Assembly (NCBI RefSeq): GCF_003850565.1
Contig: NZ_CP027706.1
Span: forward strand, 1,736,001 to 1,800,000
Source: Pseudomonas sessilinigenes
GTDB lineage: Bacteria > Pseudomonadota > Gammaproteobacteria > Pseudomonadales > Pseudomonadaceae
Direction of reading: 5' to 3'
Length of the DNA stretch: 64,000 nucleotides
Shown: in pieces, positions 15,653-38,039 of the stretch
Layout of the letters: each line of letters starts with the position of its first letter
Numbering within the stretch: the first letter of the stretch is position 1
Notes under the pieces: generated by a model
The model's database searches: none
What the model was told of the DNA's origin: nothing
Seen by the model: the letters and a program-made list of their open reading frames with translations, nothing else
Translations under genes and position numbers: made by a program

Positions 15653-18600
15653 GTGAACCAAGCCCCTCTAGTCAGCATCGTCATCCCCGCCTTCAATCCC
15701 CGCTTCTTTGCCCAGGCCCTGGACAGCGCCTTGGCCCAGACCTATCAGCCACTGGAAATCGTGGTCTGCGACGACAGTGCCGGTGACGAGATCCAGCGCA
15801 TTGTCGAAGGTGTTTGCGAGCCCGCACATCCGGTGCGCTACCTGCGCAATCCGCAGCGCCTGGGCCTGCAGAAAAATATCCTGCGCGGTGTCCAGGAAGC
15901 CGACGGCGAGCTGATCAAGGTCCTGTGTGATGACGACCGACTGTTCGCGCCCAGCGTTGCCCTGCAGGCGCCGATCCTGGCCGAATATCCTGAGGTCAGC
16001 CTGGTGTGCGGGCTGCGCGTGTTCAGCGATGCCGGTAACTCCATCCTGCCTTCGCGGCTGGACAACAGTTGCTTCTCCCTCTGCGATTCAGTGTTCAAGG
16101 GGGACGACATGCTGGGGATCCTCGAGGGCTGGCAGAGCAACTACCTGGGTAACTTCAGCTCGACGCTGATGCGCCGCGCCGATGTGCTGGAATTGCTGCC
16201 AGCGCTGATCCAGGAGGGCGCAGGGTTCGTGGCCTTGCTGGATACGGCGTTGTTCATCTGCCTGCTCAGGCGCGGCAACCTTGCGACGCTCAATACGGTG
16301 CTCAGTTGTGAGCGGCTCTATCCCGGGCGCTTCAGCGCGACTCCAGAGGTGCTCAAGCTGGCCGGTTCCGAGTGGGATTGGTTGAAGCAGATGCTGGCCG
16401 CGCGAGCTGGTGAGTCGGCTCCGGCCGCTGGTTGGGTGCGCTATGTGGATCTGGTCCGGGCGGGTGAAGAGCCGCGCCGGTGGCAGGAACTGTGCGTGAC
16501 CCGGGTCCTGGGCAATCGCAATACCGTGGTCAATGGCCGGGTAGGCGGGGCAAGCCAGAGTTATGAGGAGTTCTATCGCGAGTGGCTGGGCAGCCGCTGC
16601 CTGTCGCCGTCCGAGCAGCGCCATCTGCCCCAGCGTCTCGATAGCTGGTCGCGCCAGGCGCGTATCGTGCCGGTGGTGATCGATGTCGACGGTTCCGCTG
16701 TGGCGCTTGAGCGCACCTTGAGTAGCCTGGATGCCCAGCTGTATGCGCCCCAGGCGGTGCTGGTGCTGTCCGATGCCGACTGCTCGACGCGCGAGCGGGT
16801 CTTGCAGCAGCCGCTGCGCGGCGATGGGTTGCAGCAACTCAATGAGTTGCTGCCGCAACTGGAAGGCTGTGACTGGTTCTACCTGTTGCAGGCTGGCGAT
16901 CGCCTGTCTGCCTCGGCGCTGCTGGTGCTGGCCGAGCGTATCGCCAGCATCCCGACCATGCTCGGTGCCTACAGCGATGAAGGCGCCCTGGTGGAAAGTG
17001 AGTCCGTCGAGCCGGTGTTCAAGCCGGATTTCAACCTTGACCTCATGCGCTCCTATCCCTATGTCGGGCGGACCCTGGCCTTTTCCCGCGAGCGTGTTCT
17101 GGCCGAGGGCGGTTTCGATCCGGCCCGGGGCGAGCTGGCCCCCCATGACCTGCTCTGGCGGCTGGTGGAGGCTGCCGGTCCGCAGGCGATCGAGCACATT
17201 GCCGAGATCCAGGTGGAATCGGAGTTTTCCTTTGCCCAATGGTTGTCGCGGCCGCAGGTGATCGAAGCCAGTGAGGGGTTGGTGAGCGCCCACCTGCAGC
17301 GGATCGGTGTGGAGCATCGGATTTGCCACGATGACCTGCCGCTGATCAATCGCATCGACTACCTGCACGGCAAGCGGCCTCTGGTATCGATCATCATCAC
17401 CTGCGGCGACTCCCTGGCCGCACTGCAGCGCTGTGTCGAAAGCCTGATCGAGCAGACGGCCTACAACCACTACGAGATCCTGCTGGTGGATGCCGGCAGT
17501 CGCGACCCGGCCATGGCCGACTGGCTGGCGGCCATGGCCCAGCTGGGGGCGTCGCTGTTGCGGGTGCTGGCTTGTGATGGCGGGGGCAATCAGGCGGCGT
17601 TGGTCAATGAAGTCGCGGCCCAGGCGCGTGGCGAGTACCTGCTATTGCTCAGCCATGATGCGCAGATCTGTACCCGCGACTGGCTGGATGAGCTGCTCAA
17701 TCAGGCCCAGCGCCCAGAGGTAGGGATCGTGGGCGCGCGGATCCTGGCGGCCGATGGCTCCATCCTGCATGCCGGCCAGGTGCTTGGCCTGGCAGGCCCG
17801 GTGGGCTCGCCTTTCGTCGGCGAGGCCCTCGGTGCCCGTGGCTATATGCAGCGCTTGCAGGTGGTGCAGAACTGGAGTGCGGTGAGCGCCGATTGCCTGA
17901 TGGTGCGCAAGGAGGTGTTCGATAGCCTCGGCGGCCTGGCGCAGGAGGACTTCAATACTGGCCTGGGGGTTGCGGATTTTTGCCTGCGAGTGGATCGCGA
18001 CGGCTACCTGGTGGTCTGGACACCCCATGCCACCCTGATGCAGGGAGCCGCTTCCCGGGTCGATGGTGCAGTGACGCAGGAAGTGCTGGTATCCGACCAG
18101 GAGGCGTTCTATCGCCGCTGGCTGGCGAGGATCGCTCGTGATCCTGCCTACAACCCGGCCCTGAGCCTGGGCTTTTCCAGCTTCAGCCTGGAGCCGACCC
18201 TACGCAATAACTGGAATCCCTTCTACAGTCGCTCGCTGCCCTTGATCCTGGGGCTGCCGGTCAACGGCACCGCGACCGGGCATTACCGGGTCACTGGGCC
18301 GCTGAGCGCGCTGGAGGAGTCCGGACGAGTGATCTCCAGGGTGTCCTACGAGTCGCCTTCGATGGTCGAGATCGAGCGGCTTTCCCCGGATACCATCGTG
18401 CTCCAGGGGCGCTACAGCGAAGGCTCGGCCGGCGATATCCTGCGGATGAAGAAGTATTCCAGTGCGCTGCGGATCTTCGAGCTCGACGACTACGTGGTCA
18501 GCGCGCCGAAGAAGAACAGCCATACCCGGAACAAGCCGGCCAATACCGAGCAGATGCTGCGTGAAGGCATTGCCATGTGCGATCGCGTGGTCGTGACCAC

Positions 18601-19222
18601 CCAGCCCCTGGCCGATGCGCTGTCGAGCATGCACAGCGATATCCGGGTCGTGCCCAACATGCTCGCGCCAGATCCCTGGGCGACCTTGACCTCCCGCCGA
18701 GGCACTTCCAGCAAACCTCGAGTGGGCTGGGGTGGCGGCACCAGCCACACCGGTGACCTGGAGATCATTGCCGATGTGGTGCGCGAATTGGCCAATGAGG
18801 TGGAGTGGGTGTTCTTCGGCATGTGCCCCGACGAACTACGGCCCTATCTGCATGAGTTCCATCCGGCGATCAGCTTGCAGAGCTACCCCTTCAAGTTGGC
18901 CAGCTTGAACCTGGACCTGGCCCTGGCACCGCTGGAGTTCCATATCTTCAATGACTGCAAGAGCAATCTGCGGTTGTTGGAGTACGGCGCCTGCGGCTAT
19001 CCGGTAATTTGCACCGATACCGAGGCCTATCGCGGCTTCCTGCCGTGCACCAAGGTGCTGAGCAACAGCACCGAGGAGTGGTTGCAGGCCATTCGCATGC
19101 ACCTGGCCGACCCGGCGGCCAGCTATCGCATGGGCGATGAGCTGCGCGCGGCAGTGCATCGCGATTTCATGCTGCGCAGCGACAACCTGCAGCACTGGTT
19201 GTGGGGGTGGCTGCCGGATTGA
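15653..19222 (+). CDS. Large multidomain flagellin glycosyltransferase (FgtA/Fgt1-like)
   Basis: A protein of 1189 residues with at least three glycosyltransferase modules. A GT2 domain sits at about 7-230 (VSIVIPAFNP, VVCDDS, LCDDD). A second, degenerate GT2-like block covers about 345-560. A further GT2 domain lies at about 577-800 (VSIIITCGD, LLLLSHDAQICTRDWLDELLNQAQRPEVG). The C-terminal part at about 870-1189 is GT1/GT4-like (GWGGGTSHTGDLEII, LLEYGACGYPVICTD). No membrane segments are seen. Position between flgL and fliC and the architecture match the FgtA/Fgt1 enzymes that glycosylate flagellin in P. aeruginosa and P. syringae. Acceptor and sugar are inferred. The GTG start at 15653 begins MNQAPLVSIVIP; an earlier in-frame start is possible. 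Confidence 0.82.
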   Translation: MNQAPLVSIVIPAFNPRFFAQALDSALAQTYQPLEIVVCDDSAGDEIQRIVEGVCEPAHPVRYLRNPQRLGLQKNILRGVQEADGELIKVLCDDDRLFAPSVALQAPILAEYPEVSLVCGLRVFSDAGNSILPSRLDNSCFSLCDSVFKGDDMLGILEGWQSNYLGNFSSTLMRRADVLELLPALIQEGAGFVALLDTALFICLLRRGNLATLNTVLSCERLYPGRFSATPEVLKLAGSEWDWLKQMLAARAGESAPAAGWVRYVDLVRAGEEPRRWQELCVTRVLGNRNTVVNGRVGGASQSYEEFYREWLGSRCLSPSEQRHLPQRLDSWSRQARIVPVVIDVDGSAVALERTLSSLDAQLYAPQAVLVLSDADCSTRERVLQQPLRGDGLQQLNELLPQLEGCDWFYLLQAGDRLSASALLVLAERIASIPTMLGAYSDEGALVESESVEPVFKPDFNLDLMRSYPYVGRTLAFSRERVLAEGGFDPARGELAPHDLLWRLVEAAGPQAIEHIAEIQVESEFSFAQWLSRPQVIEASEGLVSAHLQRIGVEHRICHDDLPLINRIDYLHGKRPLVSIIITCGDSLAALQRCVESLIEQTAYNHYEILLVDAGSRDPAMADWLAAMAQLGASLLRVLACDGGGNQAALVNEVAAQARGEYLLLLSHDAQICTRDWLDELLNQAQRPEVGIVGARILAADGSILHAGQVLGLAGPVGSPFVGEALGARGYMQRLQVVQNWSAVSADCLMVRKEVFDSLGGLAQEDFNTGLGVADFCLRVDRDGYLVVWTPHATLMQGAASRVDGAVTQEVLVSDQEAFYRRWLARIARDPAYNPALSLGFSSFSLEPTLRNNWNPFYSRSLPLILGLPVNGTATGHYRVTGPLSALEESGRVISRVSYESPSMVEIERLSPDTIVLQGRYSEGSAGDILRMKKYSSALRIFELDDYVVSAPKKNSHTRNKPANTEQMLREGIAMCDRVVVTTQPLADALSSMHSDIRVVPNMLAPDPWATLTSRRGTSSKPRVGWGGGTSHTGDLEIIADVVRELANEVEWVFFGMCPDELRPYLHEFHPAISLQSYPFKLASLNLDLALAPLEFHIFNDCKSNLRLLEYGACGYPVICTDTEAYRGFLPCTKVLSNSTEEWLQAIRMHLADPAASYRMGDELRAAVHRDFMLRSDNLQHWLWGWLPD

Positions 19223-19471: not shown

Positions 19472-20245
19472 ATGAAGGCAGTAATTCTGGCAGGTGGCCT
19501 GGGTACGCGTATCAGCGAGGAGTCCCATCTCAAGCCCAAGCCCATGATCGAGATCGGCGGCAAGCCAATTCTTTGGCACATCATGAAGTTGTATTCCGCC
19601 CATGGGATCCATGACTTCGTGATTTGCCTGGGCTACAAGGGCTACGCGATCAAGGACTTCTTCGCCAACTACTTCCTGCACACCTCGGACGTGACCTTCG
19701 ACATGCGCAACAACCGCATGGATGTGCACCAGAACTACAGCGAGCCCTGGAGCGTGACCCTGATCGACACGGGCGAGGAGACCATGACCGGTGGTCGCCT
19801 GCGTCGGGCCGGGCGTTACCTGCAGGACGAAGAAGCGTTCTGTTTCACCTATGGCGATGGCGTGTCCGACCTGGATATCGGCGCCCTGGTGGCGTTCCAC
19901 AAGGCCCACGGCAAGCTGGCCACGGTGACGGCGGTGCAGCCGCCCGGCCGTTATGGCGCTCTGGAGCGCGATGGCGATCAGGTCATGGGCTTCACCGAGA
20001 AACCTCGGGGCGATGGTGGCTGGATCAATGGCGGGTTCTTTGTCCTGTCGCCCAAGGTGCTGCCTTACATACAGGGCGATAGCACCACCTGGGAAGCGGA
20101 GCCGCTGATGCAATTGGCCCGGGACGAGCAACTGCGAGCCTTCGAGCACGGCGGCTTCTGGCAGCCGATGGATACCCTGCGCGACAAGAATCACCTGGAA
20201 CAACTCTGGCAAAGCGGGGAGGCCCCGTGGAAGCAGTGGGACTGA
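19472..20245 (+). CDS. rfbF: Glucose-1-phosphate cytidylyltransferase
   Basis: A 257-residue nucleotidyltransferase, the same length as RfbF. The N-terminal [15 protein letters not shown] binds the nucleotide and [17 protein letters not shown] is typical of the CDP-glucose enzymes. It makes CDP-glucose from CTP and glucose-1-phosphate. The start at 19472 has an AGAGGA site. It overlaps the dehydratase gene by 19 bases and opens a run of about 13 closely packed genes reaching pseI. Confidence 0.92.
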
Positions 20246-21309
20246 GCGCGCAATTCTGGCGGGGAAAGCGTGTCCTGCTGACCGGCCACACCGGCTTCAA
20301 GGGTAGTTGGCTGAGCCTGTGGCTGGAGAGCCTGGGCGCCCAGGTCAGCGGTTTCGCCCTGGACCCTGGAACCGAGCCGAGCCTGTTCGAGCTGGCCCGG
20401 GTGGCCGAAGGCATCGATGACCATCGCGGTGATCTGCGCGACCTGGGCAGCCTGCTGGAGCTGATTGCCCGCACGGAGCCGGAGATCGTCCTGCACCTGG
20501 CGGCCCAGCCGCTGGTCCGCGAGGCCTACCGCGACCCGCTGGGTACTTACTCGAGCAACGTCATGGGCACCCTGAACCTGTTGGAGGCGATCCGCCAGGT
20601 CGGCGGAGTACGAGCCTGCGTGCTGGTCACTACCGACAAGGTCTATGCCAACCAGGAGTGGCTGTGGCCCTACCGGGAGAACGAGCCCCTGGGCGGGCAT
20701 GATCCCTATAGCAGCAGCAAGGCCTGCTGCGAATTGCTGGCGCAGTCCTATGCGTCGTCGTTTTTTCCTGCCCAGCGTCATGACGAGCACGGCCTGGCCC
20801 TGGCCACGGCACGTGCCGGCAATGTCCTGGGTGGCGGTGACTTCGCGCCGGAGCGCTTGATACCCGATGTGCTCAAGGCCTGGTCCGCCGGTGAACCGGT
20901 GACCTTGCGCTATCCCCAGGCCGTGCGCCCCTGGCAGCACGCCCTGGAGCCCCTGGCCGGCTACCTGCAACTGGCCGCCGGGTTGTACCAGCAAGGCCCG
21001 GAGTTCGCCGGGGCCTGGAATTTCGGCCCTAGCGAGCAGGACATGTGCAGCGTCGGCGATGTCGTGGAGTTGCTGGCCCGGCATTGGCCGGCAGCGCCGG
21101 GCTTGCGAATCGAACCGAGTGAACTGCATGAAGCCGGGCTGTTGCGCCTGGACAGCAGCCGCGCCCGCCAACTGCTGGGCTGGCAGCCGCGCTGGAGCCT
21201 GGAGCAATGCCTGACGCAGACCCTGGACTGGCACCTGGCCTGGAAGGGCGGTGCGGACATGCGCGCCGTGACCTTGGGCCAGTTGAACCTGTATCGAGGC
21301 GCACTGTGA
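20227..21309 (+). CDS. rfbG: CDP-glucose 4,6-dehydratase
   Basis: A 360-residue extended SDR enzyme. NAD is bound by [10 protein letters not shown] (about 20-29). The catalytic residues sit in [11 protein letters not shown] and in YSSSKACCE (Tyr-x3-Lys). It converts CDP-glucose to CDP-4-keto-6-deoxyglucose. The start is a GTG at 20227 with GGGGAGG upstream, inside the end of rfbF. The 3-dehydrase gene rfbH/ascC, which would lead to 3,6-dideoxy sugars, is absent from this window, so the pathway goes elsewhere. Confidence 0.92.
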
Positions 21310-21866
21310 GCGAGTTCCAGGTGATGCCCCTGGCCCTGGCGGGGCTGTCGGAGGTGCGCCACAAGCGCTTCGAAGATCAGCGCGGGCATTTCTCGCGACT
21401 GTTCTGCGAGGGCAGCCTGGGCGCCTTCGGCCAGCCGTTTCACATTCGCCAGATCAACCATTCCTGTACTCGCGAACGTGGCAGCGTGCGCGGCCTGCAT
21501 TACCAGACCGCGGCGCGTCCCGAGGCCAAGCTCATTACCTGCCTGCGTGGCGAAGTCTGGGACGTGGCAGTGGACTTGCGCGCCGATTCGCCGACCTTCC
21601 TGCACTGGCATGCCGAGCACTTGCGTGCTGGCGATGGCCGCAGCTTGCTGCTGCCAGCGGGTTTTGCCCATGGCTTCCAGGCCCTGAGCGACGATGCCGA
21701 ATTGTTGTACCTGCACAGCGCCGACTATGCCCCGGAGCACGAGGCCGGGCTGTCGGTGCTGGACCCGAGGCTGGCGATCGATTGGCCATTGCCTGTCAAT
21801 AATCTGTCGAGCCGCGATGCCAGCCATCCCTTGCTCGATGCCGCCTTCGCTGGAGTGAAACTATGA
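21306..21866 (+). CDS. dTDP-4-dehydrorhamnose 3,5-epimerase-like protein
   Basis: A 186-residue RmlC-type cupin. The motifs QINHSCTRERGSVRGLHYQ and LLPAGFAHGFQAL contain the histidines and the sheet typical of the family. By context it epimerises the CDP-4-keto-6-deoxyhexose at C3, C5 or both. The GTG start overlaps the rfbG stop by 4 bases (GTGA). Which carbons it acts on, and whether before or after methylation, cannot be read from sequence. Confidence 0.82.
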   Translation: MSEFQVMPLALAGLSEVRHKRFEDQRGHFSRLFCEGSLGAFGQPFHIRQINHSCTRERGSVRGLHYQTAARPEAKLITCLRGEVWDVAVDLRADSPTFLHWHAEHLRAGDGRSLLLPAGFAHGFQALSDDAELLYLHSADYAPEHEAGLSVLDPRLAIDWPLPVNNLSSRDASHPLLDAAFAGVKL

Positions 21867-23089
21867 ATTGCCGTGGTTGCGGCGCATGCCTGAGCCTGCC
21901 CCTGATCGACCTGGGTACCTCGCCACCTTCCAATGCTTACTTGCGCGCTGAACAACTGGACCAGGCCGAGCAGTGGGTGCCGCTCAAGGTCCAGGTCTGC
22001 CAGCAATGCTGGTTGGTGCAGACCGAGGACTACACCCGCGCCGACCACCTGTTCGATGCCGACTACGCCTACTTCAGCTCGTTTTCCAGCACCTGGCTCA
22101 AGCACGCCCAGGACTATGTGGCGCAAATGGTCGAGCGTTTCGGGCTCGATTCGCAGAGCCGGGTGGTGGAGATCGCGGCGAACGATGGCTACCTGCTGCA
22201 GTATGTGGCCGAGCGCGGTATTCCCTGCCTGGGCGTCGAGCCGACCCACAGCACTGCCCAGGCAGCGCGGGACAAGGGGCTGTTGATTCGTGAAGCGTTC
22301 TTCGGCCTGGAAACCGCCCGCGAACTGGTGGCGCAGGGCTGGGCTGCGGACCTGATGGCAGCCAATAACGTGCTGGCCCACGTGCCGGACATCAACGATT
22401 TCCTGGGTGGTTTTGCCACCCTGCTCAAGCCGGCGGGGGTGGCGACCTTCGAGTTCCCGCAATTGCTGAGCCTGATGGCCGGGCAACAGTTCGACACCCT
22501 GTATCACGAGCACTATTCGTATCTTTCCCTGACAGCGGTCATGGGGCTCTGTCAGCGCAATGGCCTTGAGGTCTTCGATGTCCAGGCCCTCAAGACCCAT
22601 GGCGGCTCGCTGCGGGTCTTCGTCCAGCGCCAGGGCGTGGCGTCGCGTCCGGTGCAGGACAGCGTCGTCCGGCAATTGCGCTTGGAGCATGAGGCGGGGG
22701 TGACGACCACCGAGTACTACCAGACCCTGGCGCCGGCGGCGCAGGGCATCAAGCACGAGTTGCTCAGGTTCCTGCTCCAGGCCAAGGCCGAGGGCAAGCG
22801 CGTGGTGGGCTATGGGGCGGCGGCCAAGGGCAATACCCTGCTCAACTATGCCGGGATCAAGGCCGACCTGCTGGCCTGGGTCGCTGATGCCAGCCCGCAC
22901 AAGCAAGGCAAGTTCCTGCCGGGTAGCCGGATTCCCATCGTGGCGCCCGAGCGTATCGATATTGAACGGCCCGATTATGTGTTGGTGCTGCCGTGGAACC
23001 TGCTGGCGGAGGTCAGTGAGCAACTGGCCCAGGTTCGCCAGTGGGGCGCTCGGTTCGTGATCGCCGTGCCGGAGCTGAAAGTACTATGA
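21863..23089 (+). CDS. Zinc-type sugar C-methyltransferase (TylCIII/NovU family)
   Basis: A 408-residue SAM-dependent methyltransferase with the three-part layout of the sugar C-methyltransferases. It has an N-terminal zinc site (CRGC near residue 3 and VCQQC near residue 46), a class I SAM domain (VVEIAANDGYLLQ, about 103-115), and a C-terminal domain with GYGAAAKGNTLLNY. This family puts a methyl group on C3 of 4-keto-6-deoxy nucleotide sugars. It begins at the epimerase stop (ATGA) and ends at the reductase start (ATGA). The product is inferred to be a 3-C-methyl-branched 6-deoxyhexose on CDP. Confidence 0.88.
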   Translation: MNCRGCGACLSLPLIDLGTSPPSNAYLRAEQLDQAEQWVPLKVQVCQQCWLVQTEDYTRADHLFDADYAYFSSFSSTWLKHAQDYVAQMVERFGLDSQSRVVEIAANDGYLLQYVAERGIPCLGVEPTHSTAQAARDKGLLIREAFFGLETARELVAQGWAADLMAANNVLAHVPDINDFLGGFATLLKPAGVATFEFPQLLSLMAGQQFDTLYHEHYSYLSLTAVMGLCQRNGLEVFDVQALKTHGGSLRVFVQRQGVASRPVQDSVVRQLRLEHEAGVTTTEYYQTLAPAAQGIKHELLRFLLQAKAEGKRVVGYGAAAKGNTLLNYAGIKADLLAWVADASPHKQGKFLPGSRIPIVAPERIDIERPDYVLVLPWNLLAEVSEQLAQVRQWGARFVIAVPELKVL

Positions 23090-23952
23090 GTGGCCTTAAG
23101 GTGCTGGTCACCGGGGCCACCGGCTTTGTTGGCCGGCACCTGGTCGCGGCCTTGCTGGCCCGCGGTTGCCAGGTGCGGGCGGTGGCCCGGGATGTGGAGA
23201 AGGCCCGCCGGATGCCCTGGTTCGAGGCCGTGGAGTTTCGTGCCCAGGATGTGCATGCCGCGGATATCGACATGGCGGCGCTGGTGGATGGCGTCGATGC
23301 CTTGGCGCACCTGGCCTGGCCTGGCCTGCCGAACTACCAGGCGCTGTTTCACCTGGAGCACAACCTGATGGCCGACTACCGCTTCATCAAGGCGGTGGTC
23401 GAGGCTGGCGTCTCCCAGGTGCTGGTCACCGGTACCTGTTTCGAGTACGGCATGCAGAGCGGGCCGCTGGACGAGCAGACCGAGGCTCGGCCAGGCAATC
23501 CCTATGGCTTGGCCAAGCACAGCCTGCACTTGTTCCTCCAGGCCCTGCAGCAGCACGTGCCTTTCAGCTTGCAATGGGCCCGGCTGTTCTACCTCCATGG
23601 GCCGGGACAGAATCCGAAGAGCCTGCTGGCGGCCCTGGATCGGGCCATCGATGCCGGTGACGAGTCTTTCGACATGTCCGGTGGCGAGCAGCTACGGGAT
23701 TACCAGGCCATCGAGGACGCTGCCGAGCAGTTGGCCGCGCTGTTGCAGGTCCGGACGTTCTCCGGGGCCGTCAACTGTTCCAGCGGCCAGCCGGTATCGG
23801 TGCGTTCGCTGGTGGAGCGGCAGATCGCCCAGCGTGGCTCGTCGATCCGCCTGAATCTTGGACACTACCCCTATCCGGACTACGAACCCATGGCGTTCTG
23901 GGGCTTGAACCAGCGCCTGCGACAATTGACGGGAGCTGCACATGACGCATGA
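23086..23952 (+). CDS. NAD(P)-dependent SDR, probable 4-ketoreductase
   Basis: A 288-residue extended SDR with the cofactor loop TGATGFVGRHL (about 9-19) and the active-site pair in PYGLAKH. By position after the C-methyltransferase it most likely reduces the C4 ketone to finish the CDP-branched sugar, as TylCII-type reductases do. It overlaps its neighbours by 4 bases at the start and 11 at the end. Confidence 0.75.
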   Translation: MSGLKVLVTGATGFVGRHLVAALLARGCQVRAVARDVEKARRMPWFEAVEFRAQDVHAADIDMAALVDGVDALAHLAWPGLPNYQALFHLEHNLMADYRFIKAVVEAGVSQVLVTGTCFEYGMQSGPLDEQTEARPGNPYGLAKHSLHLFLQALQQHVPFSLQWARLFYLHGPGQNPKSLLAALDRAIDAGDESFDMSGGEQLRDYQAIEDAAEQLAALLQVRTFSGAVNCSSGQPVSVRSLVERQIAQRGSSIRLNLGHYPYPDYEPMAFWGLNQRLRQLTGAAHDA

Positions 23953-25012
23953 GTTGTATCGGGTCGCCGACCTGCCGGTGTTGCAGAACCGCACCTTCGC
24001 CGATGCTCGCAGCGCCCAGGCTTCGGCCAGCGCGGACATGGTCCTGGTGCAGGACCTGCAAAGCGGGTTGGTCTATAACCAGGCCTTCGATGCCGACAAG
24101 CTCAGCTACGACAGCGACTACCAGAACGAACAGGCCCATTCGGCGCAGTTCCAGCGGCATCTGATGGATGTCGAGGGCATTGTCGCCCGGCACTTCAAGG
24201 GACAAAGGCTGATCGAGGTCGGTTGCGGCAAGGGGTATTTCCTCGAGCTGTTGCGCAGCCTGGATTACTCCATCACCGGTATCGACCCGGCCTATGAGGG
24301 CGATAATCCAGAAGTGATCAAGGCCCCGTTCACCCGTGACCTGGGGTTGTCCGCCGAGGCCATCGTGTTGCGCCATGTGCTGGAGCACATTGCCGACCCG
24401 CTGGCGTTCCTCAAGGAAATCGCCAGGGCCAACCAGGGTGGGCAGATCTATATCGAGGTGCCTTGCTTCGACTGGATCCTGGAGCATCGTGCCTGGTTCG
24501 ATGTGTTCTACGAGCACGTGAACTATTTCCGCCTCGACGACTTGCGGCGGATGTTCGGCACGGTGCATGAGGCCGGGCACCTGTTTGGTGGCCAGTACCT
24601 GTATGTGGTCGCGGACCTCGGTAGCCTCAAGGACCAGTTGCAGGCGCCTGCCCAGCCTTTGCAGATGCCGGTGGACTTCACCGCCAGCATCGAGCAGGCC
24701 AAGCGCATCATCGGTTCGGCTCCGCAGGCGGGTGCCGGTATCTGGGGGGCATCTTCCAAGGGCGTGATCTATTCGCTGTTCCTGCAACGCGCCGGAGTGG
24801 CGGTGGACCAGGTGGTGGACATCAACCCTGCCAAGCAAGGGCGCTACCTGCCGCTGAGCGGCATGCGCGTGTCATCGCCGCAAGAGGCCATGCAGGTGCT
24901 GCCGGAAGGGGCCAACCTGTTCGTGATGAATTCCAATTACCTAGAAGAGATCAAGCGCATGACCGATGGCCGTTATGTCTATCACGCCGTCGACAGCGCT
25001 TCATTCCGATAA
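23942..25012 (+). CDS. Class I SAM-dependent methyltransferase
   Basis: A 356-residue protein. The SAM motif LIEVGCGKGYFLEL lies at about residues 90-103, followed by ITGIDPAY and VLRHVLEHIADPLAFLKE. The C-terminal half has GAGIWGASSKGVIYSLFLQ, resembling the C-terminal domain of the C-methyltransferase family, but the N-terminal zinc cysteines are missing. It overlaps the reductase gene by 11 bases. It may methylate the sugar of this pathway; the target is unknown. Confidence 0.7.
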   Translation: MTHELYRVADLPVLQNRTFADARSAQASASADMVLVQDLQSGLVYNQAFDADKLSYDSDYQNEQAHSAQFQRHLMDVEGIVARHFKGQRLIEVGCGKGYFLELLRSLDYSITGIDPAYEGDNPEVIKAPFTRDLGLSAEAIVLRHVLEHIADPLAFLKEIARANQGGQIYIEVPCFDWILEHRAWFDVFYEHVNYFRLDDLRRMFGTVHEAGHLFGGQYLYVVADLGSLKDQLQAPAQPLQMPVDFTASIEQAKRIIGSAPQAGAGIWGASSKGVIYSLFLQRAGVAVDQVVDINPAKQGRYLPLSGMRVSSPQEAMQVLPEGANLFVMNSNYLEEIKRMTDGRYVYHAVDSASFR

Positions 25013-25031
25013 TTTTCAGTGAGACCCGAAC

Positions 25032-25769
25032 ATGAGCGAGAACAACGTCATTCAAGCCTTCGAACAAGAGTGCCAGGCGCAGATCAGCGCCCAGGGCCAG
25101 GATGAAAAGCTCAAGGGCCTGGCGCGGGATTTTTTCAATGAGTCCGCGACCCACAAGTACAGCTATCACTTCTCCTGGATGGGGCGGCCGATCATCCAGT
25201 TGCCCCAGGACATGATGGCGATGCAAGAGATCATCTGGCAGGTCAAGCCGGACCTGATAATCGAGTGCGGCATCGCCCATGGCGGGTCGATCATCTACTA
25301 CGCCTCGCTGCTGGAGTTGCAGGGCCATGGCGAAGTGCTGGGGATCGACCTGGACATTCGTCCCCACAACCGCGAGGCCATCGAGCAGCATCCGATGAGC
25401 AAGCGTATTCGCATGATCGAGGGTTCGAGCATCGATCCGGCCATCGCCGAACAGGTACGGGCCGCGGCCGCCGGCAAGAAAGTGATCCTGGTCCTGGACT
25501 CCAACCACACCCACGAGCATGTGCTCGAAGAGCTGCGCCTGTATGCGCCGCTGGTGTCGGTGGATAGCTATTGCGTGGTCATGGACACGGTTGTCGAGGA
25601 CATGCCGGCAGACTTCTTCCCGGATCGTCCCTGGGGGCCGGGAGACAACCCGAAGACCGCAGTGTGGGCCTATCTGGAGGAGAACCGTGATTTCGAGATC
25701 GACTATCAGATGCAGAACAAGCTGCTGATCACCGTGGCACCGGACGGCTATCTGCGTCGGGTTCGTTGA
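25032..25769 (+). CDS. CmcI/RhlC-like methyltransferase (cephalosporin hydroxylase family)
   Basis: A 245-residue protein of the family annotated as cephalosporin hydroxylase (CmcI). The motif LIIECGIAHGGSIIYYASLLE is the SAM-binding loop, followed by GIDLDIRP and LVLDSNHTHEHVLEELR, with acidic and histidine residues suited to a metal. Despite the family name, members in carbohydrate clusters are usually thought to be O-methyltransferases. Here it probably modifies the flagellar glycan. It starts 19 bases after the preceding methyltransferase gene. Confidence 0.7.
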   Translation: MSENNVIQAFEQECQAQISAQGQDEKLKGLARDFFNESATHKYSYHFSWMGRPIIQLPQDMMAMQEIIWQVKPDLIIECGIAHGGSIIYYASLLELQGHGEVLGIDLDIRPHNREAIEQHPMSKRIRMIEGSSIDPAIAEQVRAAAAGKKVILVLDSNHTHEHVLEELRLYAPLVSVDSYCVVMDTVVEDMPADFFPDRPWGPGDNPKTAVWAYLEENRDFEIDYQMQNKLLITVAPDGYLRRVR

Positions 25770-25820: not shown

Positions 25821-28757
25821 ATGTGGGTTGAAGACAAGACAATGAAGACTGATACAGCGCCGTTGAGCGAACGAATCACACTGGTGGTGATGACTCACAA
25901 GCGCAAGGCGTTCCTGCAACGTACCTTGCAGTACTACAGCACTTATCCGTGTTCGATCCTGGTGCTGGACTCCTCGCCGCAAGCCGACGAGTCCATCGCC
26001 CAGCGCTATCCCCAGGTCGATTACCGGCACCTGCCGCAGTTCACCTACAAGGGGCTGCAGGACAAGCTGACCTATGGCGTGAACCTGGTGACCACGCCCT
26101 ACATGGTGTTTGCCGCCGATGATGATTTCCTGATCCACGATGCCTTGACCGCATCGGTGGAGTTCCTTGAAGCCCATCCCGACTACGGGGTGTGCCATGG
26201 CTACGGGATGATGTACCTGGCCAGGGCTTCGGAAACCGCCTATTACCGTCGCGATCGCCGGGGAATCGAGGACTATGCCAGCGAAGATCCGGAACAGCGG
26301 GTCAAGGATTTCCTTGGGCATTTCCTGCCGCCATTCTATGCCGTGACCCGCACCGACCTGTTGCAGCAGTGGTACAACCAGTTGCCTGCGGGGACGAATT
26401 TCGAATGGCAGGAGATCGGCCACAGCTTCTACCTGCTGGCCTGCGCCAAGGCGCGGGTCCTGCCGATTCCCTTTGCCGTGCGTGAAGCCAACTATGGGGC
26501 TTCGGAACACAACACCAACGTGCTGACGGTGTTGATGTACAACGATGCGCAGTCGGTGGCGCAGCGGGAGGCATTCGCGGAGTTCCTGGCCTCGTTGCCC
26601 AGTGGTTTCAGCGGCCGGGACCCGCAGCAGGTCAAGCAGATTGCCCTGGACAGCTTCGCGGTCATGGCCGAATGCTTGACCAGCGGACGTTCGCTCAAGG
26701 GGACGATGATCTTCCGTTCGGCCTGGGTCGAGGTGGGAGATGAGCCGGTACGCTCCTTCGGTCCGGAGCAGTTTGTCGAGATGCCGTTCTACAACAAGCC
26801 GATGTTCGATCTGCTGACCCAGTTCGAATTCCTCATGCACGCGATGCCTGCCGGCCGGGTCCAGCTCAAGGAGCTTGAAGGCGTATTGCTGCGCCAGGAA
26901 GAGCTGATGCGCGTGCAGCCCAACGATACGCCGCGCAGCCTGCGCAGCCGGTTGTGGGAGGCCCTGGGGCTGAACCTGTTCAACCGCCAGGTGGTCAAGC
27001 GCCTGGTCGAGGCCATGCAGGACAGCGACGAGCCACAAGAGCTGCGCAAGCTGCAAGCCTGGGCCGAGCGCCTGGAGTCGGTGCCGGGGCCGCAGGGGCG
27101 CGAGCTGCTCGACGCTACCGGGTCGGGCCGTTTGCTCAATTGGCTCGAGGCGCGAGCTCCACAGCCTGCACAGCTGAGCGCGATCGCCGCGCACCAGGCC
27201 CGCCAGGGTGGCGTGCCGCAGGTACAGATCCTGCTGCTCGATCTCGATGCCAGCATGGTCAAGTTGCAGGCCACCCTCGATAGCCTGGTCGCCAGCCACT
27301 ACAAGGCGTTCAAGCTGGTGGTCTTCACCACGGGCGACCTGCCAGCCACGACCACGGCCCGGGACACCCTGCATTTCGTCAAGGTGACGCACAGCAACTA
27401 CGTCGAGCGGATCAACCAGGCGGTGGCCCAGTCCGCTGCCGAGTGGGTGCTGATGGCGGCGGCCGGCGATCAATTCACCGCCAGTGGCCTGTTGCGGGCC
27501 AGCCTCGAGTTGGCGGGCGTCGAAGGCATTCGTGCCGTGGCCATGGACGAGGTCCAGCGCCGCAGCGATGCGACCCTGAGCATGGTGTGGCGCCCAGGGA
27601 TCAACCTGGACCAGTTGCAGGGCGCGCCGTCGTTGATGGCGCGGCATTGGCTGTTGCAACGCCAGGCCCTGTTGGCGATTGGCGGGTTCTCCACTGAGCT
27701 CAAGCAAGCGCTGGAGCTGGATGTGTTGCTGCGCCTGATCCAGGACGGTGGCTTGGGCGGCCTTGCGCACCTGGCCGAGCCGTTGCTGATTTGCCAGGCC
27801 CCGGGCGATGAAACCCATGCCGAGGAGCGGCAGGTACTGACTCGCAATCTGGCCGCACGGGGCTATCGGGCCCAGATCGGCTCGGCGCAGCCAGGTACCT
27901 ACCAGATCGACTACCAGCATGCAGAGCGGCCGTTGGTATCGATCATCCTGGCCAGCCAGGATAACTTCGCCCAGTTGCAGCGCTGCCTGGTGAGCGTGCT
28001 GCAACGTACCCGCTACCAGCGCTACGAAGTGTTGATCGCGGAGAATCATAGCCAGAATGCCGAGCTCGACAGCTGGCTGGCCAGCCTTGAGGGCCGTGGC
28101 GAGCGCATCCGCGTGCTGCGCAGTGAGCGACGCCTGAGCCACTCGGCGCTGTACAACGCCGCTTGCCGCGAGGCCAAGGGCGAGTACCTGGTGCTGTTGT
28201 CCTCGGATGCCGAGGTGGTCAACGCCAACTGGATGGAGAGCCTGCTCAACCAGGCCCAGCGTCCTGAGGTCGGGGTGGTCGGTGCCCGCTTGGTCGATGA
28301 GCAGGGCCTGACCACCCAGGCTGGCCTGATCCTGGGGGCCAATGGCCAACTGGGCGCGGCCTTTGCCGGCGAGGCCAAGGATGCACCGGGCTACATGAAC
28401 AGCTTGTGGGTGGAGAAGAACTACTCGGCGGTGTCCGGCGTTTGCCTGATGCTGGCCAAGGACCTCTACGAGGCTGTCGGTGGACTGGACGAAGAACACT
28501 TCGACCAGGCTTTCGCCGATGTCGACCTGTGCCTGAAGACTGCCGATGCCGGTTATCTCACCGTGTTGACGCCGCAGGCGCAGATCCTGCACCCGGGCAC
28601 CCTGGCCGAGGACTCGCAGGCTGCCGCGGCCCTGAAGGACAAGTGGGCGGTGCGCTTTGCCCAGGATGTCAATTACAACGAAAACCTGGAGCTGGCTGGC
28701 AAGGGGTTTGAATTGAGTACTGCCAGGACGGTGAATTGGATGCAACTGCTCGGATAG
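25821..28757 (+). CDS. Multidomain glycosyltransferase (TIGR00180-like plus GT2)
   Basis: A protein of 978 residues. The N-terminal block (about 17-280; ITLVVMTHKRKAFLQRTLQYY, AADDDF) resembles the TIGR00180 glycosyltransferase domain. A middle GT2-like block lies at about 465-680, and a C-terminal GT2 domain at about 704-950 (VSIILASQDN, VLLSSDAEVVNANWMESLLNQAQRPEVG). The C-terminal module is clearly homologous to residues about 577-800 of the 1189-residue enzyme at 15.6 kb. The start is uncertain: 25821 (MWVEDKTMK) has GGGGAAAGG close upstream, while 25842 (MKTDTAP) lacks a good site. Its place between the CDP-sugar and pse genes suggests transfer of one of these sugars. Confidence 0.78.
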   Translation: MWVEDKTMKTDTAPLSERITLVVMTHKRKAFLQRTLQYYSTYPCSILVLDSSPQADESIAQRYPQVDYRHLPQFTYKGLQDKLTYGVNLVTTPYMVFAADDDFLIHDALTASVEFLEAHPDYGVCHGYGMMYLARASETAYYRRDRRGIEDYASEDPEQRVKDFLGHFLPPFYAVTRTDLLQQWYNQLPAGTNFEWQEIGHSFYLLACAKARVLPIPFAVREANYGASEHNTNVLTVLMYNDAQSVAQREAFAEFLASLPSGFSGRDPQQVKQIALDSFAVMAECLTSGRSLKGTMIFRSAWVEVGDEPVRSFGPEQFVEMPFYNKPMFDLLTQFEFLMHAMPAGRVQLKELEGVLLRQEELMRVQPNDTPRSLRSRLWEALGLNLFNRQVVKRLVEAMQDSDEPQELRKLQAWAERLESVPGPQGRELLDATGSGRLLNWLEARAPQPAQLSAIAAHQARQGGVPQVQILLLDLDASMVKLQATLDSLVASHYKAFKLVVFTTGDLPATTTARDTLHFVKVTHSNYVERINQAVAQSAAEWVLMAAAGDQFTASGLLRASLELAGVEGIRAVAMDEVQRRSDATLSMVWRPGINLDQLQGAPSLMARHWLLQRQALLAIGGFSTELKQALELDVLLRLIQDGGLGGLAHLAEPLLICQAPGDETHAEERQVLTRNLAARGYRAQIGSAQPGTYQIDYQHAERPLVSIILASQDNFAQLQRCLVSVLQRTRYQRYEVLIAENHSQNAELDSWLASLEGRGERIRVLRSERRLSHSALYNAACREAKGEYLVLLSSDAEVVNANWMESLLNQAQRPEVGVVGARLVDEQGLTTQAGLILGANGQLGAAFAGEAKDAPGYMNSLWVEKNYSAVSGVCLMLAKDLYEAVGGLDEEHFDQAFADVDLCLKTADAGYLTVLTPQAQILHPGTLAEDSQAAAALKDKWAVRFAQDVNYNENLELAGKGFELSTARTVNWMQLLG

Positions 28758-28766: not shown

Positions 28767-29768
28767 ATGTTCAACGGCAAGTCGATTTTCATCTCTGGCG
28801 GTACCGGCTCCTTCGGTCGCAACTTCATTCGCCGCCTGCTTGAGCTGTACCAGCCCAAGCGGGTGGTGGTGTTCTCGCGCGATGAGCTCAAGCAGTACGA
28901 AATGCAGCAGACCTTCAATGCGCCCTGCATGCGTTACTTCCTGGGGGATGTGCGTGATGCCGAGCGGTTGCGCCAGGCCATGCGCGGTATCGACTTCGTG
29001 GTCCATGCCGCGGCCCTGAAGCAGGTTCCGGCGGCGGAGTACAACCCGACGGAGTGCATTCGTACCAACGTCAATGGCGCCGAGAACATCATTGCCGCGG
29101 CGATCGACAATGGGGTGAAGAAGGTCGTGGCCCTGTCTACCGACAAGGCTGCGAGCCCGATCAACCTGTATGGCGCGACGAAGTTGCTGTCGGACAAACT
29201 GTTCGTTGCCGCGAACAATATTGCCGGCGAGCAGCCCACCCGGTTCGCCGTGGTGCGTTATGGCAATGTCGCAGGCTCCCGTGGCTCGGTGGTGCCGTTT
29301 TTCAACAAGCTGATAGCCGAAGGGGCGAGCGAGCTGCCGATCACCGATGAGCGCATGACCCGGTTCTGGATCACCCTGGACCATGGTGTGCAGTTTGTCC
29401 TCGACAGCTTTGCCCGCATGCACGGTGGAGAAATCTTCGTGCCGAAGATTCCTTCGATTCGCATCCTCGACCTGGCTTCGGGCATGGCTCCACATCTGCC
29501 CCACAGGCAGGTGGGCATCCGTCCTGGAGAGAAGCTCCACGAGTTGATGGTGCCTTTGGATGATGCACGCATGACCCTGGAGTTCGCCGATCACTACACG
29601 ATCCAGCCGTCCATTCGCTTTACCAGCGTCAATGTTGATTTCGCCATGGATGGGGCAGGGGAGAAAGGTGTGCCGGTAGCCGAGGATTTCGAGTACCGCT
29701 CCGACACCAATCCGCAGTTTCTCTCCGTGCGCCAGATTGCCGAGCTGCATGAGGGCATCCTGGCATGA
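28767..29768 (+). CDS. pseB: UDP-GlcNAc 4,6-dehydratase (inverting) PseB
   Basis: A 333-residue SDR, full length. The NADP loop SGGTGSFGRNF, the ALKQVPAAEYNP segment and the active-site stretch STDKAASPINLYGATKL are those of PseB. It performs the first step of pseudaminic acid synthesis, giving UDP-2-acetamido-2,6-dideoxy-arabino-hexos-4-ulose. It starts 10 bases after the glycosyltransferase and overlaps pseC by 4 bases. Confidence 0.95.
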   Translation: MFNGKSIFISGGTGSFGRNFIRRLLELYQPKRVVVFSRDELKQYEMQQTFNAPCMRYFLGDVRDAERLRQAMRGIDFVVHAAALKQVPAAEYNPTECIRTNVNGAENIIAAAIDNGVKKVVALSTDKAASPINLYGATKLLSDKLFVAANNIAGEQPTRFAVVRYGNVAGSRGSVVPFFNKLIAEGASELPITDERMTRFWITLDHGVQFVLDSFARMHGGEIFVPKIPSIRILDLASGMAPHLPHRQVGIRPGEKLHELMVPLDDARMTLEFADHYTIQPSIRFTSVNVDFAMDGAGEKGVPVAEDFEYRSDTNPQFLSVRQIAELHEGILA

Positions 29769-30937
29769 TCCCCTACGGTCGCCAGAGCCTGGACCAGGCG
29801 GATATCGATGCCGTGGTGCAGGTCCTGCAGTCCGACTGGCTGACCCAGGGGCCGGGCATCGAGGCCTTTGAGCAGGCGATGGCGCTGCGTTGCCAGGCGG
29901 CCCATGGCGTGGCGGTATGCAATGCGACATCAGCCCTGCATATCGCTTGCCTGGCTGCCGGCCTGGGACCCGGCGACTGGCTGTGGACCAGTCCCAACAC
30001 CTTCCTGGCGTCGGCCAACTGTGGGCGTTATTGCGGGGCACAGGTGGATTTCGTCGATATCGATCCACATACCTGGAACCTCGATGCCCAGGCGCTGGAG
30101 CGCAAATTGCTGTTCGCCGCTGCCAAGGGGCGCCTGCCCAAGGTGCTGGTGGCCGTGGCCTTCTCTGGGCAAAGCTGTGACATGCGCCGGCTGGCGGAGC
30201 TCGCCGAGCGCTATGGCTTCATCCTGATCGAGGATGCCTCCCATGCCGTTGGCGCCAGCTATGCCGGGCGTCCGGTGGGTTGTGGCGAGTTCGCGGCGAT
30301 GACGGTGTTCAGCTTTCACCCGGTGAAGATCATTACCAGTGCCGAAGGTGGCATGGTCATGACCAACGACGCTGAGCTGGCGGACCATTTGCGGCGCTTG
30401 CGCAGCCATGGCATGACCCGTGACCCGGCGCAGATGAGAGGGGACTCCCACGGCCCCTGGTACTACCAACAGACCGAACTTGGGTTCAACTACCGGATGA
30501 CGGACCTGCAGGCGGCCCTGGGGTTGTCACAGTTGAACAAGCTGGACGAGTTCGTGCAGCGCCGTCGTTACCTGGCCGAGCGCTACCGGCAGCGGTTGCA
30601 GGAATTGCCGCTGACGCTGCCGCGGTCCCAGGCTGAAGCGCAGTCGGCCTGGCACTTGTATGTCGTACGGTTGCAGCCTGAAGGCCTGCGGCGTTCCCAT
30701 CGAGAGGTTTTCGAGGGCCTGAGGGCCGCGGGAATCGGCGTCAACCTGCATTACATCCCGGTGCACCTGCAGCCCTATTACCAGGACCTGGGTTTCGCCG
30801 CAGGGGATTTTCCCGAGGCCGAACGCTATTACGCCCAGGCCATCAGCTTGCCCATGTACCCCGGATTGAGCGACGACGAGCAGGATTATGTGGTCGAGCA
30901 GTTGCAACGCTTGCTCCGGGCACCGGAGGCCGCGTGA
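29765..30937 (+). CDS. pseC: UDP-4-amino-sugar aminotransferase PseC
   Basis: A 390-residue DegT/DnrJ/EryC1 PLP enzyme. The PLP lysine is in FSFHPVKIITSAEGGM, preceded by LIEDASHAVGASY. It aminates C4 of the PseB product to give the L-altrosamine derivative. It overlaps pseB and pseF by 4 bases each, consistent with one transcript. Confidence 0.95.
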   Translation: MIPYGRQSLDQADIDAVVQVLQSDWLTQGPGIEAFEQAMALRCQAAHGVAVCNATSALHIACLAAGLGPGDWLWTSPNTFLASANCGRYCGAQVDFVDIDPHTWNLDAQALERKLLFAAAKGRLPKVLVAVAFSGQSCDMRRLAELAERYGFILIEDASHAVGASYAGRPVGCGEFAAMTVFSFHPVKIITSAEGGMVMTNDAELADHLRRLRSHGMTRDPAQMRGDSHGPWYYQQTELGFNYRMTDLQAALGLSQLNKLDEFVQRRRYLAERYRQRLQELPLTLPRSQAEAQSAWHLYVVRLQPEGLRRSHREVFEGLRAAGIGVNLHYIPVHLQPYYQDLGFAAGDFPEAERYYAQAISLPMYPGLSDDEQDYVVEQLQRLLRAPEAA

Positions 30938-35332: not shown

Positions 35333-35357
35333 CGACCTGCTCACGGCGATAAATGGG

Positions 35358-35390
35358 GCGCTCAAGCCATGGTCTTGAGCGCTTTTTTTT
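35358..35390 (+). terminator. Intrinsic terminator after the FabH-like gene
   Basis: GCGCTCAAG (35358-35366) and CTTGAGCGC (35374-35382) form a 9-base-pair stem with a 7-base loop, followed directly by eight T residues. This is the clearest intrinsic terminator in the window. It separates the FabH-like gene from the Maf gene. Confidence 0.85.
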
Positions 35391-35413
35391 GCACTACTCA
35401 AAGGCGAGGCAGC

Positions 35414-37190: not shown

Positions 37191-38039
37191 ATGGCTTTAA
37201 CAGTAAACACTAACGTTACATCGCTGAGCGTTCAGAAAAACCTGAACCGCGCTTCCGACGCTCTGTCGACTTCGATGACTCGCCTGTCTTCCGGCCTGAA
37301 GATCAACAGTGCAAAAGACGACGCTGCTGGCCTGCAGATCGCTACCCGTATGACTTCGCAGATCCGTGGTCAGAACATGGCGATCAAGAACGCCAACGAC
37401 GGTATCTCCATCGCCCAGACCGCTGAAGGTGCGATGCAAGAATCCACCAACATCCTGCAGCGTATGCGTGAACTGGCTGTTCAGGCTCGAAACGACTCCA
37501 ACGGCACTGCTGACCGTACTGCTCTGAACAAAGAGTTCTCGCAGATGTCGGACGAGCTGACCCGTATCGCCAAGTCGACCAACCTGAACGGTAAGAACCT
37601 GATCGACGGTACTGCTGGCACCATGACCTTCCAGGTTGGTTCCAACACTGGCGCTACCAACCAGATCACCATCACCCTGGCTAGCGGCTTCGACGCTTCC
37701 ACCCTGGGTGTTGACTCCGGCACCATCGCCATCACCGGCGACAGCTCCAACATCGACACCAACGTTACCAAGTCGCTGGATGCCATCGACAAGGCGCTGC
37801 AGACCATCAACTCCAGCCGTGCCGACCTCGGTGCTGCCCAGAACCGTCTGACCAGCACCATCTCCAACCTGCAGAACATCAACGAAAACGCCAGTGCTGC
37901 ACTGGGTCGCGTACAAGATACCGACTTCGCTGCTGAAACTGCCCAGCTGACCAAGCAGCAGACTCTGCAACAAGCTTCGACCGCAGTTCTGGCCCAGGCC
38001 AACCAACTGCCATCCGCTGTACTGAAGCTGCTTCAGTAA
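37191..38039 (+). CDS. fliC: Flagellin FliC
   Basis: A 282-residue flagellin, the short form known from fluorescent and plant-associated pseudomonads. The conserved N- (about 1-140) and C-terminal (about 200-282, ending AVLAQANQLPSAVLKLLQ) coiled regions flank a short Ser/Thr-rich centre, the likely site of O-glycosylation. The plant-immunity epitope flg22 region is present with KINSAKDDAAGLQIA and an upstream RLSSGL. A strong GAGGAAT site precedes the ATG. Codon choice (many GCT, CGT, GAC) suits a very highly expressed gene. Confidence 0.97.
   Translation: MALTVNTNVTSLSVQKNLNRASDALSTSMTRLSSGLKINSAKDDAAGLQIATRMTSQIRGQNMAIKNANDGISIAQTAEGAMQESTNILQRMRELAVQARNDSNGTADRTALNKEFSQMSDELTRIAKSTNLNGKNLIDGTAGTMTFQVGSNTGATNQITITLASGFDASTLGVDSGTIAITGDSSNIDTNVTKSLDAIDKALQTINSSRADLGAAQNRLTSTISNLQNINENASAALGRVQDTDFAAETAQLTKQQTLQQASTAVLAQANQLPSAVLKLLQ

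Follow-up and report, generated by a model that had tools for sequence, protein, structure and literature searches.

Which sugar is made by seven consecutive genes in the flagellar locus of Pseudomonas sessilinigenes, on which nucleotide is it built and where does it go? In the window, i.e. the whole stretch of 64,000 nucleotides analysed here, seven ORFs fill positions 19472-25769 with intergenic distances of -19, +14, -4, -4, -11 and +19 bp (Table 1). This gene set and its overlaps had been proposed in the initial annotation and are borne out by the coordinates and family matches. As the same genes co-occur, mostly in the same order, in other genera, their association is not a matter of chance. 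We consider it likely, with a probability of about two in three, that the seven genes form an operon whose product is a C-methyl-branched 6-deoxyhexose carried on CDP, similar in type to CDP-vinelose, and that this sugar is transferred to flagellin. At the level of sequence we regard as established the families and active-site residues of the enzymes, the order of the genes, their association with CDP and their flagellar surroundings. The evidence very probably points to a rare C-methylated 6-deoxyhexose that is activated by CDP and made in a flagellar context.

Table 1. Sugar cluster and flanking features, with positions in the window
Feature	Position	Strand	Predicted function	Family evidence
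Flagellin_N protein	13969		taken as FlgL	family match
Upstream large glycosyltransferase	15653..19222 (start ~15653)	+	GT2 twice and weak GT1-type, candidate transferase	PF00535, two stretches
rfbF	19472..20245	+	glucose-1-phosphate cytidylyltransferase (to CDP-glucose)	TIGR02623
rfbG	20227..21309 (GTG start)	+	CDP-glucose 4,6-dehydratase	TIGR02622
RmlC-like	21324..21866	+	sugar epimerase, C3 and/or C5	PF00908
C-MT	21863..23089	+	zinc-type sugar C-methyltransferase	PF08421, PF13489, PF08484
SDR	23086..23952	+	extended SDR, probable 4-ketoreductase	PF01370
MT2	23942..25012	+	divergent second sugar-C-methyltransferase fold without zinc domain	PF13489, weak PF08484
PF04989 enzyme	25032..25769	+	rhamnosyl-O-methyltransferase/CmcI-type, probable sugar O-methyltransferase	PF04989
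Downstream large glycosyltransferase	25839..28757 (start approximate)	+	GT2-type, candidate transferase	PF00535, two stretches
pse genes	between 28767 and 34188		PseB, PseC, PseI and cytidylyltransferase	
PF01973 protein	35369		presumably Maf-type	PF01973
Flagellin	37191..38039	+	presumed acceptor	PF00669 and PF00700
FliD	38581			

Nucleotide carrier of the sugar

RfbF and RfbG exceed the curated cut-offs of their families (TIGR02623, 463.5 vs. 300.25 bits; TIGR02622, 472.5 vs. 278.45 bits), in agreement with the CDP-glucose synthesis and 4,6-dehydration assigned initially. RfbF is 75% identical to the gene product of Azotobacter vinelandii (genome G056) and 71% to that of genome G017, and RfbG, which contains the motifs TDK and YSSSK, is the sole TIGR02622 match above cut-off in its own genome. 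The same two enzymes also open the route to 3,6-dideoxyhexoses of the abequose, ascarylose or yersiniose type, but a C-methyltransferase and an O-methyltransferase are foreign to that pathway, and none of seven weak RfbH matches across the genome (NF011936, best 156 bits) reaches the 423-bit cut-off, which extends the absence of rfbH noted earlier to the genome as a whole. A 3,6-dideoxyhexose was rejected on this ground and is exceedingly improbable.

The zinc-type C-methyltransferase (C-MT) might instead use a dTDP- or UDP-sugar made elsewhere, with the CDP genes serving a separate sugar. Its solved relatives are bound to dTDP or a dTDP-sugar according to their entry titles, and the own genome contains rmlB and rmlD above curated cut-offs (TIGR01181, TIGR01214) at 1.4 Mb from the cluster; its rmlA and rmlC genes were named by inspection rather than by family scan. 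dTDP-4-keto-6-deoxyglucose is thus probably made in the same cell. The neighbourhood of C-MT argues against such a supply, however. C-MT occurs in 91 of the 298 Pseudomonas species sampled, and in all 91 a TIGR02622 dehydratase starts within 3.5 kb of its start. Among the named relatives, i.e. the best 80 of 587 confirmed stretches, which do not include A. vinelandii, rfbF or rfbG is found within 8 kb in 78 and both in 70, vs. rmlA-like genes in three and rmlB-like genes in one; two loci contain neither rfbF nor rfbG within this distance. Identity floors for these neighbours were 45% (rfbF, rmlA, rmlB), 44% (rfbG), 40% (PF04989) and 27% (flagellin); the labels 'amino', 'sdr' and 'gt41', with floors of 20%, are loose, 'amino' including PseC in Pseudomonas. 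With a floor of 30% and the whole flank taken into account, rmlA is found in 4, rmlB in 3, rfbF in 78 and rfbG in 75 of the same best 80.

In 58 loci of the C-MT family chosen blind to their neighbours (66 PF08484 matches minus three in the window's genus, three others, and L274 and L278, where no C-MT ORF over 900 bp scored), rfbF/rfbG accompany 24 of the 33 C-MTs that are at least 44% identical to the C-MT of the window or its Azotobacter relatives, and one of the 25 below this line, which was chosen after the data and falls in the gap between two groups of identities, 27-38% and 48-62%. The remaining nine close C-MTs have no rfbF/rfbG within the flanks examined. In a tree that included 14 of the 80 named loci and five of the 32 Pseudomonas loci described below, a clade of 55 rows (support 100/100) unites the C-MTs of the window, G056 and G017 with 46 of 47 CDP-labelled rows, the exception being L255 on a long branch, and leaves KijD1, TcaB9 and MtmC outside; the join of this clade to KijD1/TcaB9 is weak (85/56). 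The CDP label changes seven times on the tree, vs. a mean of 27 when shuffled, and in the window the start of C-MT overlaps the stop of the epimerase gene by 4 bp. On the neighbour counts the dTDP supply was rejected, and we regard it as very unlikely. As relatives of C-MT adjoin rfbF/rfbG and form a separate clade, the CDP linkage now stands on firmer ground than before.

Epimerisation, methylation and reduction

The zinc (PF08421), SAM (PF13489) and C-terminal (PF08484) domains of C-MT all exceed their cut-offs. Its best solved matches are KijD1, MtmC and TcaB9 (E 1e-70 to 1e-69), C3 enzymes of antibiotic sugars that share its domains, zinc cysteines and active-site residues, but act on dTDP sugars, whereas the clade of the window accompanies CDP-glucose genes. 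By alignment, Y68, H173, Y214, E216 and H217 correspond to TcaB9 Y76, H181, Y222, E224 and H225, i.e. all five residues compared, those mutated according to structure entry titles, are kept, and the family assignment holds against characterised enzymes. The C-methylation part of the 3-C-methyl sugar proposed initially is supported by family and active site, but the position is less firm, a 5-C-methyl sugar being a less likely alternative, and NovU, invoked as a C3-methyltransferase, is a C5 enzyme.

The noviose pathway (NovW, NovU, NovS) combines epimerase, C-MT and ketoreductase in a similar logic, although it is dTDP-linked and methylates at C5, and transferase, dehydratase, epimerase, C-MT and SDR are the gene set of noviose. 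By analogy, the RmlC-like protein might epimerise at C3 and C-MT might then methylate C5, yielding a CDP-5-C-methyl-6-deoxyhexose. Among solved proteins, the RmlC-like protein matches NovW best (2c0z, 4.9e-33), level with RmlC (8.9e-33); NovW is listed as 3-epimerase in the available text of PMC9095892. Against C5 methylation, the three named solved relatives of C-MT are C3 enzymes, though with no NovU entry among them for comparison, and the core of the A. vinelandii cluster suggests a 3-C-methyl sugar if the structure of vinelose given below is correct; we thus consider the C5 route rather unlikely.

The epimerase assignment itself is sustained by PF00908 (188.6 bits, superfamily cut-off passed), though the equivalog TIGR01221 is narrowly missed (152.7 vs. 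155.75 bits). Another RmlC-like epimerase that acts on a CDP-4-keto-6-deoxyhexose belongs to the WbcA route of Yersinia enterocolitica, for which we know of no C-methylation. WbcA (5BUV) is listed as CDP-sugar epimerase in the available text of PMC9095892, but is a weak match to the epimerase of the window (4.1e-15). As the same text describes RmlC-type catalytic residues as no guide to specificity (PMC9095892), regiochemistry is not to be deduced from them. The SDR (PF01370) contains the motifs GATGFVG and YGLAK and has MoeE5 as best solved match (2.8e-24). The last enzyme, initially called CmcI-like, is indeed a PF04989 member (317.8 bits vs. a cut-off of 23.2), and the sole one in its genome, but since PF04989 bears the names of both rhamnosyl O-methyltransferase and CmcI, the enzyme is better read as a probable sugar O-methyltransferase; it scores below the rhamnosyl O-methyltransferase equivalog NF045824 (115.7 vs. 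400 bits). The family presumably also includes Rv2959c. This enzyme is described as methylating position 2 of rhamnose (PMC2958813, available text).

From these assignments we infer the order of substrates, the stereochemistry, the methylation sites and the acceptor. RfbF would provide CDP-glucose and RfbG CDP-4-keto-6-deoxyglucose, which the RmlC-like enzyme would epimerise at C5, and probably also at C3, toward the L-series. C-MT would methylate the carbon beside the keto group, which is most likely C3. Reduction of the 4-keto group would fall to the SDR, the PF04989 enzyme may O-methylate a ring hydroxyl, O2 by analogy, and MT2 would add an extra decoration absent from the A. vinelandii version. 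The two large glycosyltransferases encoded on either side of the cluster would probably attach the finished sugar to flagellin, where it would join pseudaminic acid, the product of the adjacent pse genes.

MT2 had been annotated as a second methyltransferase, which holds, but more exactly its whole-chain fold is itself that of a sugar C-methyltransferase. A single-sequence search of the PDB gave no match; a profile search found C3-methyltransferases. The zinc-binding N-terminal domain yields no PF08421 match, its cysteines being missing in the Pseudomonas type, whereas the G017 type retains CxxC pairs. In TcaB9 numbering, equivalents of H181, E224 and H225 and a Tyr at Y76 are kept, and F189 replaces the active-site Y222. 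We tentatively speculate, well short of an even chance, that MT2 is functional as a second C-methyltransferase on the sugar and gives a doubly C-methylated CDP-6-deoxyhexose, e.g. with branches at both carbons beside the 4-keto group. To our knowledge, this type of sugar is not known anywhere. It would be one product of a widespread, modular CDP-C-methyl-sugar system whose tails are either reductive or of the aminotransferase kind, and CDP-vinelose would be the first, gene-less member of that system. MT2 would represent a new sugar-tailoring activity, whichever atom is methylated.

Azotobacter vinelandii and CDP-vinelose

CDP-vinelose is a CDP-linked sugar of A. vinelandii described in the 1960s, vinelose being a 6-deoxy-L-sugar with 3-C-methyl and 2-O-methyl groups, and we know of no assignment to genes. 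Genome G056 is identified as A. vinelandii by its nitrogenase sequences, VnfD (474/474) and VnfG (113/113) being identical to those of 5N6Y, whose source is A. vinelandii (PMC10803253, available text). Besides rfbF, its cluster contains relatives of rfbG (51% identity), rmlC (60%), C-MT (59%) and the CmcI-type gene (52%), and the only TIGR02622 match above cut-off, the only PF08484 and the only PF04989 match of the genome all lie inside it. A flagellin gene is found at a distance of ~5 kb, with a GT41-GT2 gene in between. Dehydratase, RmlC-like protein, C-MT, SDR and a single PF04989 enzyme without MT2 match the structure of vinelose. Unlike the Pseudomonas cluster, that of A. vinelandii (L047) lacks MT2, encodes additional hexapeptide and PhyH proteins and contains no match to the SDR of the window (tblastn, 1e-5) but another SDR, so that the configuration at C4 may differ. 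Candidate genes can be offered for this old orphan metabolite, in a bacterium that is readily worked with in the laboratory.

Flagellin as presumed acceptor

The flagellar locus recognised initially is confirmed, as FlgL-like, pse, flagellin and FliD genes flank the cluster and the association recurs in other genera. From the 91 Pseudomonas C-MT loci 32 were chosen, all six divergent ones and 26 others. The large glycosyltransferase genes upstream and downstream recur at their respective sides of the cluster in the majority of these loci. Flagellar genes are neighbours of the cluster in 26 of the 32 loci and also in A. vinelandii and G017, and 13 of the named relatives, the best 80 among 587, have flagellin at a distance of up to 8 kb, all of which argues against a product destined for the O-antigen or another surface glycan. 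The six divergent loci, however, have no flagellar gene nearby at the identity floors used, and 45 of 298 Pseudomonas genomes contain a CDP-glucose dehydratase without this C-MT (one, G460, below cut-off), perhaps for other glycans; altogether, we hold a non-flagellar destination to be improbable.

Genes for CDP-4-keto-6-deoxy-D-glucose in flagellin glycosylation islands are not new, since island type 23 of four Enterobacteriaceae strains contains them (PMC4875605, available text), but the available text names no C-methyltransferase ('c-methyl', 0 occurrences; PMC4875605). In Coxiella burnetii, virenose, also a 3-C-methyl-6-deoxyhexose, has been proposed from a TylCIII-like enzyme, but in silico and on dTDP or GDP, no CDP route being seen in the available text (PMC3539893). 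This was the only work found for 6-deoxy-3-C-methyl sugars with CDP in a literature search that covered few subscription journals and gave no match for vinelose, for A. vinelandii with a branched-chain sugar or for flagellin glycosylation of Pseudomonas protegens. Judged by title and abstract, flagellin with a 3-C-methyl sugar returned only unrelated work, and CDP-glucose with a C-methyltransferase and a flagellar setting nothing relevant. As far as found in this search, the sugar pathway of the cluster is not in print.

C-methylated 6-deoxyhexoses are otherwise best known from the dTDP chemistry of antibiotics. The cluster and its relatives point to a CDP-linked branch of their biosynthesis that is common in Gram-negative bacteria and recurrent near flagellin, and given the frequency of C-MT in the genus and its flagellar setting, the flagellin of many Pseudomonas may carry a branched sugar that has not been considered before.

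The seven-gene cluster and its proposed product

The initial annotation had described seven genes for a CDP-linked, C-methyl-branched 6-deoxyhexose inside the flagellar locus, and this observation is exact, as ORF calling finds the span filled by seven co-directional genes with intergenic gaps of -19, +14, -4, -4, -11 and +19 bp.

Features of the cluster and its surroundings in the window
Feature	Position	Assignment
Cluster	19472-25769	seven same-direction genes
rfbF	gene 1	glucose-1-phosphate cytidylyltransferase; above curated family cut-off
rfbG	gene 2	CDP-glucose 4,6-dehydratase; above curated family cut-off
rmlC-like	gene 3	RmlC-superfamily epimerase; slightly below RmlC equivalog cut-off
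C-MT	gene 4, 21863-23089	zinc-type sugar C-methyltransferase; PF08421+PF13489+PF08484
SDR	gene 5	extended SDR
MT2	gene 6, 23942-25012	sugar-C-methyltransferase fold
CmcI-like	gene 7	PF04989, rhamnosyl O-methyltransferase/CmcI
Pseudaminic acid genes	28767-34188	PseB, PseC, cytidylyltransferase, PseI
ORF	31242-33143	glycosyltransferase-28-like, PseG-type part and C-terminal GNAT acetyltransferase; probably a PseG-PseH fusion
Between PseI and flagellin	34406-36703	ketoacyl-ACP synthase III-like and PF01973 (Maf-like) proteins

The solved structures nearest to C-MT are KijD1, MtmC and TcaB9, and in the alignment C-MT keeps the residues equivalent to TcaB9 Y76, H181, Y222, E224 and H225, i.e. the positions mutated in TcaB9 structure entries, as their titles state. 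NovW is the top solved-structure match of the epimerase, level with RmlC. The host genome belongs to a Pseudomonas; its closest named protein matches come from P. piscis, P. protegens and P. chlororaphis, among others.

With enzyme families, residues, gene order and association established, CDP-glucose would be converted to CDP-4-keto-6-deoxyglucose, epimerised, C-methylated at the carbon beside the ketone, reduced at position 4 and finally O-methylated, and flanking GT2 proteins may transfer the sugar to flagellin. The PF01973 protein, presumably with a Maf role, probably attaches pseudaminic acid made by the neighbouring pse genes, and the place of the ketoacyl-ACP synthase III-like gene makes an acyl modification of the glycan possible. 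O2 as the O-methylation site is suggested by analogy to Rv2959c, which we take to be a PF04989 member. An excerpt of PMC2958813 describes methylation of rhamnose at position 2 by Rv2959c.

The annotated pathway is thus supported overall, but corrected in three points: NovU is presumably a C5 methylator, MT2 has a sugar-C-methyltransferase fold, and CDP-4-keto-6-deoxy-D-glucose flagellin islands and CDP-vinelose are precedents.

Nucleotide supply

As the host genome has rmlB and rmlD above cut-offs (rml operon ~1.4 Mb from the cluster), the choice between CDP and dTDP is a genuine question. C-MT is present in 91/298 Pseudomonas species (E up to 1e-80) and CDP-glucose dehydratase in 136/298 (E up to 1e-70; 135 of these above cut-off), both lying ≤3.5 kb apart in all 91 C-MT carriers. 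In the named loci, collected by C-MT alone (best 80 of 587), neighbours were scored within 8 kb: rfbF was found in 75, rfbG in 73, either in 78 and both in 70 of the 80, vs rmlA-like genes in three and rmlB-like in one, and these counts shift little under laxer identity floors. Thus, the CDP linkage is supported. A less selected sample comprised PF08484 matches in 200 Pseudomonadota genomes (57 positive; 60 stretches read, 58 scored); here, rfbF or rfbG accompany C-MT in 24/33 stretches at ≥44% C-MT identity vs 1/25 below, a split chosen after viewing the data. The dehydratase occurs without C-MT in 45/298 Pseudomonas species (one below family cut-off), which suggests that a further CDP-sugar pathway exists in this genus.

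In a phylogeny built from 83 proteins, a clade with 100/100 support holds 55 rows including the window C-MT, 46 with CDP genes and nine without in the flanks read, and KijD1, TcaB9 and MtmC fall outside. One CDP-labelled row (L255) also lies outside, on a long branch, and the label requires seven changes in total. In five loci with CDP-clade C-MTs (L237, L238, L239, L253, a short contig, and L259), the flanks read contain neither rfbF nor rfbG nor an epimerase gene; either the cluster is split there or the sugar is supplied in another way.

Modular tails and flagellar setting

The four-gene core bears varied tails, i.e. SDR, aminotransferase, MT2, PF04989, hexapeptide or PhyH proteins. Among the best 80 of 587 named loci, PF04989 is close to C-MT in 55 and MT2 in 10 (17/32 in the Pseudomonas loci examined). 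A distant PseC-like aminotransferase (28-31% identity) directly follows C-MT, in the position of SDR in other loci, in L074, L075, L080, L084, L087, L094, L097, L103, L178 and L182, which suggests that this core also serves to make CDP-amino C-methyl sugars.

Flagellar genes adjoin the cluster in 26 of the 32 Pseudomonas loci; the remaining six carry divergent C-MTs (51-53% identical). Flagellin lies ≤8 kb away in 13 of the best 80 of 587 named loci, including Curvibacter, Acidovorax, Undibacterium, Achromobacter and Denitromonas, which implies either repeated origins of the flagellar link or its transfer together with the cluster.

Azotobacter vinelandii and CDP-vinelose

CDP-vinelose, reportedly isolated from A. 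vinelandii, is said to be CDP-linked 6-deoxy-3-C-methyl-2-O-methyl-L-talose; the term 'vinelose' was not found in the literature searched. VnfG occurs in 7/398 genomes of the family, and in one of them (G056; one contig, 5,366,370 bp) VnfD and VnfG are identical over their full length to PDB 5n6y, an A. vinelandii protein according to an excerpt of PMC10803253. Its cluster (G056:C1:2850000-2866000, L047) reads rfbF-rfbG-rmlC-C-MT-hexapeptide protein-SDR-PF04989-PhyH and shares five genes with the window (rfbF 75, rfbG 51, rmlC 60, C-MT 59, PF04989 52% identity), whereas its SDR is not matched by the window SDR as query, and hexapeptide-repeat and PhyH-type proteins are added, which we take to be superfluous for vinelose. 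Since the SDRs fail to match, the window product would be vinelose-type, not necessarily vinelose.

Flagellin is ~5 kb from the G056 cluster, with a GT41-GT2 gene in between. The only TIGR02622 (above cut-off), PF08484 and PF04989 proteins of this genome, one each, all lie within the cluster, and no second source of the CDP, 6-deoxy and C-methyl steps was found in it. The congener G017 has all seven genes in window order, followed by a TPR-GT41-GT2 gene and flagellin; in the congeners G033 and G044, genome scans detected neither C-MT nor PF04989 nor a dehydratase above cut-off. Every feature of vinelose is explained by one enzyme of the A. vinelandii set, provided that the structure given above is correct.

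Taken together, the proposed product belongs to a class whose chemistry is not entirely new; of specialist interest are the candidate genes for an orphan metabolite, the wide spread of the CDP branch and the second C-methyltransferase fold.
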